Made by a program: the position numbers and the translations under genes. The notes under the pieces are model-generated. The model was not told where the DNA came from, searched no databases, and worked only from the letters and a program-made list of their open reading frames with translations. Source: an uncultured Desulfobacterales bacterium (GTDB lineage: Bacteria; Desulfobacterota; Desulfobacteria; Desulfobacterales; SpSt-501). Taken from it: a stretch of 64,000 bases of DNA. The stretch is from positions 140,796 to 204,795 of the forward strand of contig CALIUY010000016.1 of the NCBI GenBank assembly GCA_938048455.1, in the 5' to 3' direction. Each line of letters opens with the position of its first letter. Positions within the stretch are counted from its first letter, which is position 1. Below are positions 53,926-61,703 of the stretch, piece after piece.

Positions 53926-56900
53926 TCATCGGCCGCCGAGCTTGAGCCACACCCGGACCCATTCGCTTGCGCCCCAGGCCTGGGCGTCGCAGCCGCGCGG
54001 AGTGTGCGGCCGGTCGCCGTCCAGGATTTCGGGCAGGTGTCCGAGGCAGCCGCTTTCGAGGAGCGCAAGGCTGCTCGTCAACCAAGCGAGCGCCGTTTTG
54101 CGGCCCGGCTCGCCGTATACACCGGCCCAGGCTTCGGCATAGGCCGGAAAGAGCCAAGTCCACGCCGTCCCGTTGTGGTAGGCCGGTTTGCGCTGGGTGT
54201 CCTCGTCGCCGCGGTAGGTGCCCCGATAGGGGCGCCAGGGGTCGTTCAGAAGACGCCCCTGCCACTCGATCGGCAGCGGATGGGTGACCGGACGGTCGGC
54301 GAGGCTGCGGATGCCCCCGGGGACCAGCAGCTCCTCGCAGGCGGCGAGAACCGCCCGGGCGATCGCGGGATCCTCAACCGCCCCGAGGGTCAAGGCGAGA
54401 AGCTGGTTGGGGCGCAGGTGATCGTCGGGGCGGGCGTTGGCCGCCGGGGTCCCCGATCCGCCGTGCAGGCAGTCGGCGAAGAAACCCTCCCCGGGACGCC
54501 AAAAGCGTTCCACCAGCGCGCGGCGGACCCGACGGGCGAGATCTTCCCATTCCGCGGCGGCCGGGGAATCGAGCCGTGCCATCAGCCGCAGGGCGGCGTG
54601 CCACAAGGCCTGGATTTCGATCGGGTAACCCTCCCGCGGGCTGGCCGCCGGGTGCTGGGTGTCCATCCAGGTGAAATGGGTCGGGCTGAACAACAGGGCC
54701 GAGTCCGGGTCCATGCGCACGCCGTTCGGCGTCCCCCGTTGCAATCCGCGCACGATGGAGGCGACGATTTCGCGCAGACGGCGACCGCCGCAGTCGACCT
54801 CCAGGGCCTCGAGGCCGCCTTCGGCCTCGGCCAGCTCCGCGCAGCAGACGGCGAACCACAGCGGAGCATCCGAAGTGTCGCGGTTGGACGTGTCGGCGCC
54901 GCGGATCATGTTGGGGAGCGTTCCTCGGTCTTCGAAGCGGCCGAAGAGGTGGAGCACCGAGCGCGCCTCCGAGAGCCGTCCGGCGGCGATCAAGCCGCGG
55001 CAGAAGATCAGCGCGTCGCGCCCCCAGTCGAGGAACCAGGGGTAGCCCGCGATCACCGTTTTCAGGCCGTCGCGTTCGACGAGGTAGTGTTCCAGAGCCT
55101 CCTGCAGCACGGCGAGCGGATGGACGGGGGGGTCTTCGCGGAAGAGAGAACCGGGGCAGGGCTCCGCTTCCGCCGCGGCGAGGAGGGCCGGTTCTTCGGG
55201 AAGGGCTCCGGCCTCGGCGAAGAGGGTCACCCGGTCTCCCCCGGCAAGCGGGGTCTCGAAGTAGCCGGGGCTGAAGAGATCCGAGTGCGGGTCCTCCCCC
55301 CGCTCCGCGTCGGCGGCGCGATGGACCATGTATTCCCACTGCGGCTCGAGAACGAAGCGGCCCGAGGAGACGGCGACGTTCAGGCCTGCTGCGGGGTCGG
55401 GTGCGAAACGAAAGCCGTCGGTCCGCGGGAACACCGCGGCGCGGAAACGATGCTCGGGGCCGGTGTAAGCTTTGGTCGGCTCGTGCACGCTGCGGCTTTC
55501 GATGTCGGGACGCAGGATCAGGCGCACCGGGACGTCGTCCGCAAGTCGTCCTTCGGCGCGCTCCGTGCGGTGGCGGTGGAACACGAGGTGTACGCCGTTG
55601 CGGCCCGGGGGCATCTGCAGCCGGAGCGAGAGCCGCACATGCTCCCCCTGTCCGCAGGGGACCCGGAAACGCCAGCAGAAACCGCTTTTTCCCGAGTCGG
55701 TGGAGAAGGCCTGCAGGCAGTCGAGGTTCAGCTCCCGCGAAAAGCCCTGGTAGAGGATCCAGGCACGGCAGCGCGCGAAGAGCATCCAGCGATCCACGGG
55801 ACGCACCGGGTCCGGATTGGCCGCGAGCAGCCCGTCGTAGCGGCTCTCGAGTCTGCCCCAGGCGACCGCGGTGCGTGCCATGGCTCCCCGGCCGTTTGTG
55901 GCCAGGATGCGGCGCGGCGTTTCGAGAAGCTCGGCGCGGCTGAAGCGGCGGCGCACGAAGGCCGCCTCGGGCGAAGGCAGAAGCAGCAGATCGGCCGCGG
56001 CGTGGCGCGTGGCGCCCGGTTCATGAACGCGCAGATCGAGGCCGATCGTTTTCGGTCGCCGCGGCGCGGGAAGGGGAGACAAAAGACAGAAATGCGTTCC
56101 CTCCACCGTGGCGATCGAGGTCTCGGCGCGCAGGGTGCGGCTGCGGTCCGTGACCCGCAGCCGGAAGGGCTCCCGCGCGATGACCAGCAGAAAATGCCCC
56201 GGGGGAAGCATGACTTCGCGGCGAAGATCCCGCGGCCACAGCCAGCGCGTGAGGCGGTGCCCCCATCCCTGTTGGGCGAGAAACCCCGCGGGATCGGCCT
56301 GCAGCGCCACGGCCGCCTGCTCCGGGTCGATCCCCGTCACGTCGATGCCGCGTTCTCCCCGGGAGAGGACTTCGAGGGCCTTGGCCCGCAGGCGCTGGCG
56401 TTCGATGCGGCCGGGCAGGACGAAGAGGTCCCGCCGTTCGCGCTGCAGAGCCTCGAGATCGGCCGGGTCCGGGCTCAGGCAGCGCACCTGGCCCGCCTCC
56501 AGGGCGCAGCCGAGCAGATCCCCGGCGGCGAAGGCCTCCACCGTCTCTCCGGTCAGCAGATCCACGCCGCGGCGGAGGTCGAGGCCGGGCTCCCGCGGAT
56601 CCCAGTAAGCCGCCCCCGGACGCGCGGCGTCGAGGTTGGCCAGCACGAGCAGCCGCTTGCCCTGGACCGGATCGCGTCGCAGGAGCGCGAGGTGGTTGCC
56701 CCCCCCGCGTTCGACCCAGCGGACTTCGGCGCCGGCATGCATCGCCGGGTGTTCTTTCAGGATGCGGCTCAGACGGGCGATCCAGTCGACCTGGTTGACG
56801 GGGGACCCCCAGTTCAGGGGCACGGCGTCGTGCACGTCGATTTTTTCCGCGGCGTACCACTCGACCCCGTTGGCGAAGCCGAAAGAGCCCGCAAAGGAGG

Positions 56901-58221
56901 AAAGGGCGCAGAGCGCCGTGCGCAGACGCGCCCAACGGTGGGAGGTGGCCGCGAGCCGGGGGTTGTCGTGGGTCTCGGCGAAATGGACCAGCAGCCCCTC
57001 CTGCGAGGCGATTTCGATCGCTTCGGAGAGGTAGGGTTCGATTTGGCTGCGATCGTAATTCTGAAACAACTCCGAGTAGGCCCAGTTGAGGTTGGCGGTG
57101 TCGAGGAGGCTGCGGGTGACGGAGATCTTGCCGCCGAGCCCTTCCAGCAGAAAGATCGTGTCCGGAAACTCCTCCCGCACCCGGGCGACGATGTAGCGCC
57201 AGGCCTCGTGCGGGATCATGTACCCGGCGTCGCAGCGGAAGCCGTCCACGCCGCGGCGGCACCAGGTGAGGAAGACGCCGGCCATGAAACGCCACAGCTC
57301 GGGATGACGGTAGTCGAGCTTGGTCAGGTCCTCCCACTGCACCCCCCAGGCTCCGGGAACCTCGATCCGGCCCTCCTCGGTGCGGCAGAGCCATTCGGGG
57401 TGCTCGTTGTGCAGATTCGCGGCCCAGCCGGTGTGGTTGATGGCGATGTCGAGAAACAGCCGCCCGTTGCGGCGATGCACGGCGTCCACCAGCTCGATGA
57501 ACTGCTCGGTCGGCGTGGCGCGGGGATCGAAGACCGCGAGCGCCGGGTCGACGCTGCGGAAGCTCAGCGCCGCATAGGGGCTGCCGAAGCGGCCCATGCG
57601 GCCGTAGGTCGTCGGCGTGGGGTGGATCGGCAGCAGGAGAACGATCCGGCAGCCGAGAACTCCCAGAATGAAGTCGAGCTCGGCGATCAGGTCCCGAAAC
57701 GTGCCCGAGGGCGGAATGACGGTGAAGTGCAAGGCGTCGAGCCGCTGAATGCAGGCTTCCTCCTCGGGCGGCGGCACCCGGCGGGCGCTTTTGTTGGGCC
57801 CGAATTGGCGGACGAAAGCGTTGTAGACGATGTTCGCCGCGCAGGAGTCGGCGGCGTCCACGTTCAGCACCGCGTTCGGCCCCGGCGGCCAGACGGGTCC
57901 GGCGGCTCCTTCCTCCAGAAAGAAGCACTTGGCCTCGAAATGGCCCGGCTCGCAGAGGGCGATGTCCACCCCGAAGCCGTTTTCCTCCAACGGGTGCATG
58001 GGGATGTCGAACCAGTCGCGGCCGAGCGGCGTCTGGCGGAGGTGCACACGGCGCACGATTTCCCGTCGGGCGAGCGCGGCGTGGCCGAGGTTGGTGCGCA
58101 GCCAGGCCGAACCTCTCAGTGCGGGCGGGACGCGCAGACGGAAACGGATCACGTCTCCGCAGAAATGCACCCGGTGTTCCCCGGGGGGCGGCTCCTGGAT
58201 CAGATCGGCGCGGTGCTGCAT
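53926..58221 (-). CDS. Bifunctional-type glycogen debranching enzyme (GH13 + amylo-1,6-glucosidase GH133)
   Basis: ATG 58221, preceded by GGTGAG, is preferred to the track's TTG 58242; 1431 aa. The N-terminal half is a GH13 barrel with FRSVDPALAVFD, LFLDIAINHTGWAANLHNEH, GVDGFRCDAGYMIPHEAWRY (nucleophile Asp, ~335), FPDTIFLLEGLGGKIS (Glu) and FAETHDNPRLAATSHRWARL (Asp). The C-terminal ~450 residues are the amylo-alpha-1,6-glucosidase fold: VIAGYPWFLDWGRDALIFCR (~1060), GTLPNMIRGADTSNRDTSDA and YHNGTAWTWLFPAYAEAW. The layout matches eukaryote-like GDE, in which the first domain transfers maltotriose and the second cleaves the stub. Joining both activities in one chain is inferred from the two intact domains. 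Confidence 0.88.
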   Translation of the reverse strand: MQHRADLIQEPPPGEHRVHFCGDVIRFRLRVPPALRGSAWLRTNLGHAALARREIVRRVHLRQTPLGRDWFDIPMHPLEENGFGVDIALCEPGHFEAKCFFLEEGAAGPVWPPGPNAVLNVDAADSCAANIVYNAFVRQFGPNKSARRVPPPEEEACIQRLDALHFTVIPPSGTFRDLIAELDFILGVLGCRIVLLLPIHPTPTTYGRMGRFGSPYAALSFRSVDPALAVFDPRATPTEQFIELVDAVHRRNGRLFLDIAINHTGWAANLHNEHPEWLCRTEEGRIEVPGAWGVQWEDLTKLDYRHPELWRFMAGVFLTWCRRGVDGFRCDAGYMIPHEAWRYIVARVREEFPDTIFLLEGLGGKISVTRSLLDTANLNWAYSELFQNYDRSQIEPYLSEAIEIASQEGLLVHFAETHDNPRLAATSHRWARLRTALCALSSFAGSFGFANGVEWYAAEKIDVHDAVPLNWGSPVNQVDWIARLSRILKEHPAMHAGAEVRWVERGGGNHLALLRRDPVQGKRLLVLANLDAARPGAAYWDPREPGLDLRRGVDLLTGETVEAFAAGDLLGCALEAGQVRCLSPDPADLEALQRERRDLFVLPGRIERQRLRAKALEVLSRGERGIDVTGIDPEQAAVALQADPAGFLAQQGWGHRLTRWLWPRDLRREVMLPPGHFLLVIAREPFRLRVTDRSRTLRAETSIATVEGTHFCLLSPLPAPRRPKTIGLDLRVHEPGATRHAAADLLLLPSPEAAFVRRRFSRAELLETPRRILATNGRGAMARTAVAWGRLESRYDGLLAANPDPVRPVDRWMLFARCRAWILYQGFSRELNLDCLQAFSTDSGKSGFCWRFRVPCGQGEHVRLSLRLQMPPGRNGVHLVFHRHRTERAEGRLADDVPVRLILRPDIESRSVHEPTKAYTGPEHRFRAAVFPRTDGFRFAPDPAAGLNVAVSSGRFVLEPQWEYMVHRAADAERGEDPHSDLFSPGYFETPLAGGDRVTLFAEAGALPEEPALLAAAEAEPCPGSLFREDPPVHPLAVLQEALEHYLVERDGLKTVIAGYPWFLDWGRDALIFCRGLIAAGRLSEARSVLHLFGRFEDRGTLPNMIRGADTSNRDTSDAPLWFAVCCAELAEAEGGLEALEVDCGGRRLREIVASIVRGLQRGTPNGVRMDPDSALLFSPTHFTWMDTQHPAASPREGYPIEIQALWHAALRLMARLDSPAAAEWEDLARRVRRALVERFWRPGEGFFADCLHGGSGTPAANARPDDHLRPNQLLALTLGAVEDPAIARAVLAACEELLVPGGIRSLADRPVTHPLPIEWQGRLLNDPWRPYRGTYRGDEDTQRKPAYHNGTAWTWLFPAYAEAWAGVYGEPGRKTALAWLTSSLALLESGCLGHLPEILDGDRPHTPRGCDAQAWGASEWVRVWLKLGGR

Positions 58222-58402
58222 CGGCTCACCGGTGGAATTCAAGGATCGATGAAAAGAAGTATACCCCAGATCGCCCGAGGGACAAAACCAGGGGGGAGGC
58301 GGCGATCTTCAGGCTTGCAAAAAAACCAAAGGACGCTAAGCTCAGCGGAGCGGAGCCGGAAAGGCGAAAGGCCCGGAAGAACCAAGGCGAAAAGGAGGCC
58401 CT

Positions 58403-58837
58403 GTGGGTCGACGCGTGCTGGGGTGGCTGCTGTTGATTCTCTGGGCTGCCGGAGAATTCGCAATCTCGGCCTCCGCCCAGACGTCGCGGCCGGCGACGAC
58501 GCCCGGCTCGACCCGCCTCAACCTGGTCCAGGGGGTCGTCTGCGAAGAAATCCGCGACGGCGTTCCCGCAAACAGCGCGGTCGCCTTTTCGGTGTCCACG
58601 GCCAAGATCTATTGTTTCACGACCTTCGACGCCGTCGCCGAGGACACCTTCGTCTTCCACCAGTGGTTTTTCCGCGACCGCCCGAGTTCCCGCATCCGGC
58701 TTTCGGTGAAGGCCCCCCGCTGGAGCACGTTCAGCAGCATCCAGCTTCGCGAGGCCGATCGCGGTCCATGGCGGGTCGAGATCCAGGACGCCTCCGGCCG
58801 CGTCCTGAAGACCCTGCGCTTCAGCGTCACGGATTGA
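58403..58837 (+). CDS. DUF2914 domain protein, exported
   Basis: 144 aa with GTG start right behind AAAGGAGG. A signal peptide (VLGWLLLILWAAGEFAISAS) is followed by the DUF2914 domain: LNLVQGVVCEEIRDGVPANS, YCFTTFDAVAEDTFVFHQWF, RLSVKAPRWSTFSSIQLREA and WRVEIQDASGRVLKTLRFSV. The family occurs in periplasmic proteins of Gram-negative bacteria; its ligand is unknown. Seven nt separate it from the CdaA-YbbR gene, so both are probably expressed together. It is divergent from the glycogen operon across 181 bp. Confidence 0.82.
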   Translation: MGRRVLGWLLLILWAAGEFAISASAQTSRPATTPGSTRLNLVQGVVCEEIRDGVPANSAVAFSVSTAKIYCFTTFDAVAEDTFVFHQWFFRDRPSSRIRLSVKAPRWSTFSSIQLREADRGPWRVEIQDASGRVLKTLRFSVTD

Positions 58838-58844
58838 AGGTCCG

Positions 58845-60278
58845 ATGGTCGAGACGATTTCCTTGCTCGGAACACTCCGCTGGCAGGACCTGGTCGACAT
58901 CGGCCTGAACAGCTACATCCTTTTCCGCTTCTATGTGCTCTTCCGGGGCACCTACGTCTTCCGGGTCCTGATCGGACTCACGATGCTCTGGTTTTTCCAG
59001 CAGATCGCGGCCTATCTCGGGCTGATCGTGACGAGCTGGGTGATCCAGGGCATCGTGGCGGTCGCCGCGCTGATCATCGTCGTCGTTTTCCGCAACGAGA
59101 TCCGCAATGTCCTCCAGGCCCGCAACCTCAAGTCGATCTTCTGGGGCGTTCCCCCGAAGAGCCGGGTCGCCCCAGTGGAAATCCTGGCCGAAAGCGTCTT
59201 CGAGCTCGCCCGCCGCCGGCACGGAGCCCTGATCGTCATCCCCGGGGAAGAGGACATCCGCGAACTGCTTCAGGGGGGGATCGCCTGGAGCGGCGAGATT
59301 TCGCGCGAAATGATCCTCAGCATTTTCTACCCCGGGAACCCCGTCCACGACGGCGCCGCCCTGGTCGAAGGCGAGCGCGTCTCGCGCGTGAGCGCCATTC
59401 TGCCGCTCTCCCGCCGCGAAGATTTGCCCTCGCATTTCGGGACCCGGCACCGCGCCGCCCTGGGGTTGACGGAGGCGAGCGACGCCGTGGTGATCGTGGT
59501 TTCCGAGGAACGCGGCGAGGTCAGCCTCGCCCAAGGGCCGAGGCTGCAGCGCATCCCCGATGCCGAAACCCTGATCGCCAGGCTCGAGGATCATTTCGGC
59601 GTCTCCGAGGCTCACGGCCCGGAGGCTCGCCGCGAGCGCATCGAGGTCACCACCGCCGCGTTGGTCTCGCTGCTCTTCATCACCGGCTTCTGGTACAGCA
59701 TCTCGCGCGGCCTGGAGACGCTCGTCTCCTTCGATGTTCCCGTCGAGTACCAGAACCGCAACCCGGGGCTGGAGATCGTCCAGGCTTCGGTCAACGCCGT
59801 ACGCGTGACCCTCTCCGGCTCCGGGACGCTCGTCAAATCCACGCGCCCGGACCAGGTGCGGGTGCGGGTGGATTTGAGTGCCTCCAGCGCCGGAGAAAAC
59901 ACGATCCCCATCACCGCCGGCAACGTGAGCCTGCCACCGGGCTTGAAGGTGAAAGACGTCTCCCCGCAGAGCATTCTCGTGGAGATGGACCTCACGGTGC
60001 GGAAGGAATTCCCCGTGCAAGTCGACTGGACGGGCCGTCTGCCGGAGAACATGATTCTCGCCGAGGCGGCCGTGGATCCGCCGCGGGTCGAGCTGGTGGG
60101 CAGCCGGCGGATTCTGGAGACGATGCAGACGATCTACACCGAAAAGGTGTCCCTCGAGCGGTTGCGCGAAGCCGGGGCGCTGGAGGCGCCGCTGTCGATC
60201 CAGCCCGCCTCGCTCAAGCTTGCGCCGGGCGCGCCGGAAAAGGTGGTGATCCGCTACCAGACGCGCCGCCGCGAGTGA
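58845..60278 (+). CDS. cdaA: Diadenylate cyclase CdaA fused to YbbR domains
   Basis: Predicted to make the second messenger c-di-AMP at the inner membrane. It is 477 aa. Three helices (~12-90) resemble CdaA (LVDIGLNSYILFRFYVLFRG, IVAVAALIIVVVF). The DisA_N catalytic domain (~110-235) has NPVHDGAALVEGERVSRVSA (DGA motif) and FGTRHRAALGLTEASDAVVI (RHR motif), both intact. After a fourth helix (VSLLFITGFWYSISRGLE, ~273-290) come two YbbR-type beta domains, FDVPVEYQNRNPGLEIVQAS and FPVQVDWTGRLPENMILAEA, expected outside the membrane. In Firmicutes CdaA and its regulator YbbR/CdaR are separate adjacent genes. No frameshift signal is seen at the junction. Confidence 0.9.
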   Translation: MVETISLLGTLRWQDLVDIGLNSYILFRFYVLFRGTYVFRVLIGLTMLWFFQQIAAYLGLIVTSWVIQGIVAVAALIIVVVFRNEIRNVLQARNLKSIFWGVPPKSRVAPVEILAESVFELARRRHGALIVIPGEEDIRELLQGGIAWSGEISREMILSIFYPGNPVHDGAALVEGERVSRVSAILPLSRREDLPSHFGTRHRAALGLTEASDAVVIVVSEERGEVSLAQGPRLQRIPDAETLIARLEDHFGVSEAHGPEARRERIEVTTAALVSLLFITGFWYSISRGLETLVSFDVPVEYQNRNPGLEIVQASVNAVRVTLSGSGTLVKSTRPDQVRVRVDLSASSAGENTIPITAGNVSLPPGLKVKDVSPQSILVEMDLTVRKEFPVQVDWTGRLPENMILAEAAVDPPRVELVGSRRILETMQTIYTEKVSLERLREAGALEAPLSIQPASLKLAPGAPEKVVIRYQTRRRE

Positions 60279-60296: not shown

Positions 60297-61703
60297 CTAC
60301 AATTCGAGTTCGCCCTCGAGGAGGCTTCCGGCGGGAATCACGGCCTGCCGGTCGGAACGGTTCCGGATGATGACCGTTCCCCGGAGGCGCACCCCGGCTT
60401 CGAAACGCACGTCCCCCTCGACCGTGAGCGCATCGCATTCGACGAGCGAGGGCGGCCCCTGGCGGAAACGCTCCGCGAACCGCTCGTACTTTCCGTAGTA
60501 GCGCGGATCGAGGCGGATGCGGATGACCTCGTCGCGGCCGGATGCCGCGCGCGCGGGGTTCAAAACGAAGCCCCGTTCGCGGAAGTACACGAAACAATCC
60601 GAGGCCGCGGCCAGAAGGTCGTTGCAGGTTTTCACGGGAAGAAAACGCGCGCGCGCCACGCGCACGGCGGCCGCCCCCTCGAAAACCGAAATCGCCGCCC
60701 CCATCGCGGTCTCGATCTGATAGACGGGCGGGCTCGTCTCGTCGCGGGGATCGAGGGTCTTGGGATTGACGATCATCGGCAGGTCGATTCCGCCTTCCCG
60801 ACGGATGGCCTCCCGCAGGGCGTCGAGTCGGATCCAGACGTTGTTGGTGTTGAAATAGCGGTAACGCCGGATATCCTGGAAAGCGGAAAGCTCCTCTTTC
60901 GGGCATTGTGCCGCCTCGCGCAGGATCAGCCGGCCGTCCTCCCGCCGCCGGGCGAGATGCCCGCCTTTCACGTCGGCCGGCGTCTTTTCGGCGACCTCCA
61001 TGAGAAACGGCAGTTGGCGGGAAGCGAAGTAGCCCAGAATTTCGGGATTCATCCCCGCGCCCAGGTTGTCCACATTGCGGATGAGGGCGTAGCGGATCCC
61101 TTCGTCGAGCAGCCGATCGAGCGTGCCCGAGGCGAAGAGCGCGGCGTAGACATCGCCGTGGCCCGGAGGGTTCCACTCGAGCTCGGGATCGGCCGGCCAG
61201 ACCGCGGGCCGCAGGTCGGCCTGCAACACCTTGGGGAAACGATGCTGCAGGAAGCAGAGCGGCCTCGGCTCGGGGGCGAGGCGGGATAGAGCGGCGGCCG
61301 TTTCCGCCGCGGTGTTGAAGCTGTTCATCAGTGCGAGCCGGCTTCCGTCGGCCCGCGCACGCTCGAGCACGATCGCCAGAAAGGTGAGTCCCGGCCGCAC
61401 CGGCAGGAGCGATTTGGGGCCTTTCAGCCCCATCGAGGTCCCCAGCCCCCCGTTCAGCACGATCTGCACCGAGCGAGAGAGCGACTCGCGGCCGACGGGG
61501 GCGAATTCGGCGAGAGAGGAGTCGTCGGGGAATTCGCCGGGTGCCACGGGCAGGATGTCCGCATCGCGGATGAGCCCGGTTTCCCCCCCGACCAGGCGGC
61601 GGTAAAGGCGCGCGAAGGTTTCGATCACGAAGAGGGCGAGGCCCTCTCGGGCCATCTTGGCCGTGAATTCCGCGAGGTGGGTCGGTTCGTCCGCCGGCGT
61701 CAT
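60297..61703 (-). CDS. UTP-glucose-1-phosphate uridylyltransferase, eukaryotic-type (UDPGP)
   Basis: Forms UDP-glucose from UTP and glucose-1-phosphate. The track shows a 730-aa ORF whose first ~260 residues are a shadow of ilvE. ATG 61703 behind GAGGAG gives 468 aa. Motifs of the eukaryotic family are clear: VQIVLNGGLGTSMGLKGPKS (nucleotide loop), LALMNSFNTAAETAAALSRL, NPPGHGDVYAALFASGTLDR, ALIRNVDNLGAGMNPEILGY and YRYFNTNNVWIRLDALREAI. The end (VRLRGTVIIRNRSDRQAVIP) has a left-handed beta-helix look. It is unlike bacterial GalU. Its product could feed the GH17-GT2 glucan synthase or the glycogen enzymes. Confidence 0.9.
   Translation of the reverse strand: MTPADEPTHLAEFTAKMAREGLALFVIETFARLYRRLVGGETGLIRDADILPVAPGEFPDDSSLAEFAPVGRESLSRSVQIVLNGGLGTSMGLKGPKSLLPVRPGLTFLAIVLERARADGSRLALMNSFNTAAETAAALSRLAPEPRPLCFLQHRFPKVLQADLRPAVWPADPELEWNPPGHGDVYAALFASGTLDRLLDEGIRYALIRNVDNLGAGMNPEILGYFASRQLPFLMEVAEKTPADVKGGHLARRREDGRLILREAAQCPKEELSAFQDIRRYRYFNTNNVWIRLDALREAIRREGGIDLPMIVNPKTLDPRDETSPPVYQIETAMGAAISVFEGAAAVRVARARFLPVKTCNDLLAAASDCFVYFRERGFVLNPARAASGRDEVIRIRLDPRYYGKYERFAERFRQGPPSLVECDALTVEGDVRFEAGVRLRGTVIIRNRSDRQAVIPAGSLLEGELEL

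Follow-up and report, generated by a model that had tools for sequence, protein, structure and literature searches.

CdaA-type diadenylate cyclases and CdaR (YbbR) proteins are described as interacting through membrane helices, and fusions of the two have been reported in some streptococci (A5LQF8, E1M7C3 and V8IIN0) (PMC10243994). Reported effects of CdaR/YbbR on the cyclase differ between species (PMC9259658); both the signal and the choice between activation and inhibition are unsettled. A CdaA-CdaR fusion as such is thus already known. A literature search, which did not extend to a survey of DAC architectures, returned no paper on the fused lineage of the phylum considered here or on DUF2914 in connection with a cyclase, and no relevant title on DUF2914 itself. 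The link between the fused cyclase and DUF2914 is the most testable new point of the present analysis.

The locus lies in a 64,000-nucleotide stretch of a Desulfobacterales contig, referred to below as the window. It encodes a protein that, probably, is a membrane-bound CdaA-type c-di-AMP synthase with a built-in YbbR (CdaR-like) regulator, acting through the steps set out under the proposed mechanism.

Domain organization of the fused protein

The gene (58845-60278) is a 477-codon ORF with an ATG start and one open frame through to its stop; it and all features described in this section lie on the forward strand. Its assignment as a 477-residue protein in which a CdaA-type diadenylate cyclase is fused to YbbR is based on the ORF call, Pfam matches, the seven members of the genus and a codon comparison. 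An earlier note, made from the letters of the window alone, had read the gene as CdaA and YbbR in one chain with both catalytic motifs intact, and the Pfam matches and motif positions given here confirm that reading.

Residues 11-91 (58875-59117) form a putative CdaA-like N-terminal transmembrane region, recognized by hydropathy and by alignment with 9g69_C, a full-length diadenylate cyclase chain that is the nearest solved sequence in a PDB sequence search and aligns from residue 16 through the DAC domain. The Pfam match to CdaA_N (PF19293) at residues 11-86 scores 17.3 bits, below the cut-off of 23.8, and hydropathy fits such a three-helix region. The hydropathy profile shows a single N-terminal hydrophobic block, predicted to comprise three membrane segments, and a further segment at about residues 265-290, between DAC and YbbR, which is the fourth.

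The DAC catalytic domain occupies residues 116-231 (59190-59537) and belongs to PF02457 (E 1e-35, 122.3 bits against a curated cut-off of 27), an assignment also backed by CdaA-type cyclases in the PDB. Its HDGA motif is found at residues 168-171 (59346-59357; DGA at 169-171) and its GTRHR motif at residues 199-203 (59439-59453). DGA and RHR are both kept in 45/45 DUF2914-linked homologues. The best NCBIfam match is the CdaA equivalog TIGR00159, which at 174.2 bits falls short of the 188.8 cut-off.

A variable linker (residues 232-264, 59538-59636), with a mean pairwise identity of 24% in the clade, leads to the fourth membrane segment (residues 265-290, 59637-59714), which joins DAC to YbbR. 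This segment, found by hydropathy, is the extra helix that the earlier note had placed before YbbR, and it is consistent with YbbR domains outside the membrane. Hydropathy of at least 1.3 over 19 residues is seen at this position in 87 of 90 fused homologues. Two PF07949 repeats follow, YbbR domain 1 at residues 298-379 (59736-59981; E 4.2e-8) and YbbR domain 2 at residues 389-467 (60009-60245; E 8.5e-6), with an overall match (E 4.6e-15, 56.1 bits against a cut-off of 22.3) that places the region within the family. Conserved YbbR positions are G325, P364-G366, W395, Y431 and T432. From the end of DAC to the start of YbbR the distance is 60-67 residues in the 90 fused proteins, although the linker sequence varies, which fits a requirement for rigid spacing. 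An AlphaFold model of the full fusion (five sequences) was poor, with a pLDDT of 41, and gives nothing on helix packing or on contact between helix 4 and helices 1-3.

Integrity of the reading frame

In the codon comparison, relative L034 (91% identical) aligns across all 1434 nt with zero indels. Within the junction codons 236-297, dN is 0.07 and dS is 0.35; the junction is thus under purifying selection, which rules out a frameshift. The fused ORF is present in all seven members of the genus at 69-91% identity, so that the close relatives, in which the earlier note would have taken separate orthologues as evidence against a fusion, are all fused.

An artefact of sequencing or assembly, in the form of a missed stop or a frameshift, deserves consideration given that at about 24 listed loci in the phylum cdaA and cdaR are split in one frame with a single stop codon (any of the three kinds) between them, and one lost stop could mimic a fusion. 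ORF calling on the fetched loci of this type gave separate cdaA and cdaR genes. Against such an origin, dozens of independent assemblies share the identical fused frame, selection constrains the junction, and the neighbourhoods of fused and split genes differ. The artefact reading was rejected on these three grounds and is, in our estimate, next to impossible.

The DUF2914 neighbour

The gene directly upstream (58403-58837, forward strand) encodes an exported DUF2914 protein of 144 residues with an N-terminal signal sequence. Its DUF2914 domain (58646-58828) is a member of PF11141 (E 1.1e-20, 73.5 bits against a cut-off of 23.6). As the earlier note stated, this gene ends 7 nt before the ATG of the fusion; a GAAGG at 58836-58840 (forward strand), read from the sequence, overlaps the DUF2914 stop codon and may be a ribosome-binding site. 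A scan for promoters and terminators gave nothing informative. The commonest gap between the two genes in the clade is 6 nt.

The own genome (96.5% complete) has this locus as its sole DAC, sole YbbR and sole DUF2914 locus. The flanking genes are a long amylase/glycogen-debranching-like ORF (53926-58242, reverse strand), assigned by sequence alone, and a UTP--glucose-1-phosphate uridylyltransferase (60297-61700, reverse strand; UDPGP by Pfam). Neither is kept as a neighbour across the clade.

Of the 46 fetched members of the clade to which this fused gene belongs, 45 have DUF2914 next to it, compared with 0/44 other fused loci and 0/30 separate loci. The exception, L016, has no DUF2914 match anywhere in its genome. 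In a scan of the phylum, our own count among the matches listed gave adjacency in 28/29 clade genomes vs 0/59 other genomes with a fused gene, many of which carry DUF2914 elsewhere. No other neighbour is kept this widely across the clade, and the DUF2914 gene is itself under purifying selection (dN 0.054, dS 0.52). The exported DUF2914 protein is therefore a good candidate for a partner, as the earlier note had proposed, and is probably the partner of the fused cyclase.

The AlphaFold model of the DUF2914 protein (pLDDT 68) is a beta-sandwich. A Foldseek search with this model returned generic beta-sandwich matches with TM of about 0.4 (UNC119, PDE-delta and glycosidase accessory domains) that give no functional hint, and a PDB sequence search with the protein gave no match.

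The cyclase could also be active with YbbR serving just as a membrane or wall anchor, and with DUF2914 as a co-transcribed but unrelated exported protein. The poorly conserved linker, the existence of fused forms with one YbbR domain at nine loci and the clade member without DUF2914 would all be compatible with such an arrangement. It accounts less well for a DUF2914 gene that stays in place, at low dN/dS, while the other neighbours change, or for the conserved YbbR positions listed above, and published accounts treat CdaR proteins as CdaA regulators (PMC10243994, PMC9259658). On balance we consider a plain anchor unlikely, and prefer a regulatory role for the YbbR domains. A more specific proposal makes DUF2914 a periplasmic subunit or ligand-binding partner dedicated to the fused cyclase, the two proteins together sensing the envelope and setting the c-di-AMP level in a large Gram-negative group, independently of the GlmM-linked control of Bacillota; we hold this tentatively, at slightly less than an even chance. 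If DUF2914 is a dedicated partner of the cyclase, this would be the first function for DUF2914. The conserved linkage to one exported DUF2914 gene points to a specific candidate for the signal input that has been missing.

Distribution and origin of the fusion

Within the order, DAC is present in 144 of 194 genomes. Most DAC genes listed there are fused, and most listed DAC frames are 480-550 residues long, with a second class of about 400 residues; the length of a lone CdaA (about 270 residues) is not the norm. Most c-di-AMP synthesis in the order is thereby placed on a separate lineage that is not linked to glmM. Across the phylum, a fused DAC-YbbR frame without an internal stop was found in at least 88 of 297 genomes by our own count among the matches listed, a lower bound in a set of matches where fused proteins outscore split ones. 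The joined form is an old and common arrangement across the phylum. The earlier note had suggested looking through the phylum for the same fusion and for DUF2914 beside it; both were found, the latter in nearly the whole clade. It had also treated the fusion as a departure from well-studied bacteria. The fusion is real, but a reading from one genome was too narrow in view of these counts and of the streptococcal fusions (PMC10243994). A scan of named genomes yielded no more than four close relatives and a DAC fragment from Bacteroidales.

Phylogenetic trees were calculated for this phylum alone, with no outgroup. The CdaA-part set comprised 120 sequences from fetched loci, of which 81 were fused with two YbbR domains, 9 fused with one and 30 separate, the separate genes sampled being the better-scoring ones. 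In a quick tree of all 120, every separate protein falls on one side of a single branch with a support of 100. The same branch appears in a careful tree of 86 rows (100/99) and in 100% of 200 bootstrap trees. The YbbR-part tree also shows one change between fused and split forms, with a weaker support of 68. Both halves are thus concordant with one fusion or one fission within the sample.

Gene neighbourhoods follow the same division. ftsH, folP and/or glmM accompany 30/30 separate genes and 0/90 fused genes, the identities of FtsH, FolP and GlmM having been checked by Pfam on representatives; the cluster of the split genes is ftsH-folP-cdaA-cdaR-glmM. The single branch in both trees, together with the distinct neighbourhoods, suggests that the fusion most likely happened once here, outside this cluster. 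As cdaA-cdaR-glmM clusters also occur in Bacillota (PMC10243994), the split state is probably the older one and the change a fusion; this direction is inferred, as the tree is unrooted. At loci L105-L120, cdaA and cdaR as separate genes often share a reading frame, divided by a single stop codon and few nucleotides, so that one or two mutations would give the fused layout.

In several genomes of the order, at loci L039, L040, L041, L042 and L049, a separate YbbR protein of about 310 residues is encoded right after ftsH-folP, and no cdaA adjoins it. These orphan YbbR proteins group on the separate-CdaR side of the YbbR tree. Their position suggests that the old cluster lost its cdaA once the fused enzyme was established. 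Genomes G031 and G021 have one DAC each, the fused one, and the orphan CdaR may act on the fused enzyme in trans or have another role.

Riboswitches, turnover and catalytic competence

No Rfam element was found between 50000 and 64000 of the window, and hence no riboswitch at the fusion locus. Elsewhere in the own genome, at L141:1501-1637 outside the window, a c-di-AMP riboswitch that matches RF00379 with 82.5 bits (gathering score 38) precedes the gene of an exported fibronectin-type-III protein. Such riboswitches are sparse in the order: they occur in 10 of 194 genomes, of which five belong to this genus, where a single genome (G002) has as many as eight copies. Each of the ten genomes, the own and nine others, has one listed DAC, of fused length. 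Among the genes that follow the riboswitches are three for Kup K+ transporters, two for amino-acid-permease-type transporters and one for KdpA, besides genes for exported FN3/PKD, FG-GAP and cytochrome proteins. Potassium transport is a classic target of c-di-AMP, and for this reason the fused enzyme is probably the source of the riboswitch ligand. In this genus, riboswitches stand before exported fibronectin-type-III/PKD genes at L142, L145-L147, L152, L153 and L155 as well as in the own genome; such targets are not the usual K+ or wall-hydrolase ones.

A DAC domain that is inactive, in a protein acting as a receptor or scaffold, would be in keeping with the more distant fused lineages, where the second arginine of RHR is gone in 21 of the 36 two-YbbR proteins that are not linked to DUF2914. 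In the DUF2914-linked proteins, to which the present one belongs, both motifs are without exception kept, and riboswitches occur in genomes that have the fused gene as their sole listed DAC; several of these riboswitches precede K+ transporter genes, which argues that this enzyme makes c-di-AMP. Loss of catalysis is accordingly a very improbable explanation here, and an active synthase is preferred. Two altered sequences, both with DGA intact, were noted: GLRHTAA (L083, L084, L086, L088, L092-L099 and L104) and GTRHHA (L048, L087, L089, L091 and L100-L102). In these two distant fused lineages, activity may have been changed or lost.

The earlier note had also called for phosphodiesterases and receptors of c-di-AMP in the genome. 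On the receptor side, the genome has the riboswitch described above. Among the DHHA1 matches of the own genome are RecJ, an NrnA/DhhP-type DHH-DHHA1 protein, a CBS/polyA-polymerase protein, an AlaRS-like frame and one weak match; none is GdpP-like, and no PgpH-type domain was found in that genome. The NrnA/DhhP-type protein is the best candidate phosphodiesterase.

Proposed mechanism

The sequence shows the architecture, the intact motifs, the fused protein as sole cyclase, the single-branch division between fused and separate forms, the DUF2914 linkage and the presence of riboswitches; membrane orientation, catalytic activity and regulation through YbbR and DUF2914 are presumed. The domain order is that of CdaA and CdaR, which would place DAC in the cytoplasm and YbbR outside. 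Three N-terminal membrane helices would hold the DAC domain at the cytoplasmic face, and the short variable linker would pass into the fourth helix and on to two YbbR domains in the periplasm. Two chains would pair via their DAC domains and make c-di-AMP from two ATP molecules. The state of the envelope would be sensed by YbbR, probably jointly with the exported DUF2914 protein encoded beside it, and this would change pairing or activity through the helices. The c-di-AMP produced would act via ydaO-type riboswitches, some of which precede K+ transporter genes. The fusion would make the CdaA-CdaR contact between membrane helices permanent. In a natural single-chain enzyme the cyclase and YbbR parts have a set ratio and contact, so that regulation can be probed directly by truncation.

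Comparison with known systems

The fused protein resembles the CdaA (DacA) and CdaR (YbbR) of Bacillota in its DAC domain with DGA and RHR and, as predicted, in three N-terminal helices and a YbbR region outside after a membrane helix. It differs in being one chain rather than two, in lying outside a cdaA-cdaR-glmM cluster, in having two YbbR domains instead of three or four, in being co-encoded with DUF2914 and in scoring below the NCBIfam CdaA equivalog cut-off. The split cdaA-cdaR genes of the same phylum, in the ftsH-folP-glmM cluster, encode homologous domains in the same order and are often adjacent and in frame, but they are not joined, and a single branch with strong support parts them from the fused genes. 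The fusions of about 390-420 residues (L043-L046, L077, L082, L085 and L090) likewise join DAC to YbbR with the same linker length, but have one YbbR domain and no adjacent DUF2914, and sometimes occur as a second copy beside a 480-residue form (e.g. G034). Finally, the streptococcal fusions A5LQF8, E1M7C3 and V8IIN0, compared by description, have the identical domain order in one chain. Whereas those are described for some strains only, the fusion reported here forms a deep and fixed lineage in many families of another phylum, with a gene partner of its own.
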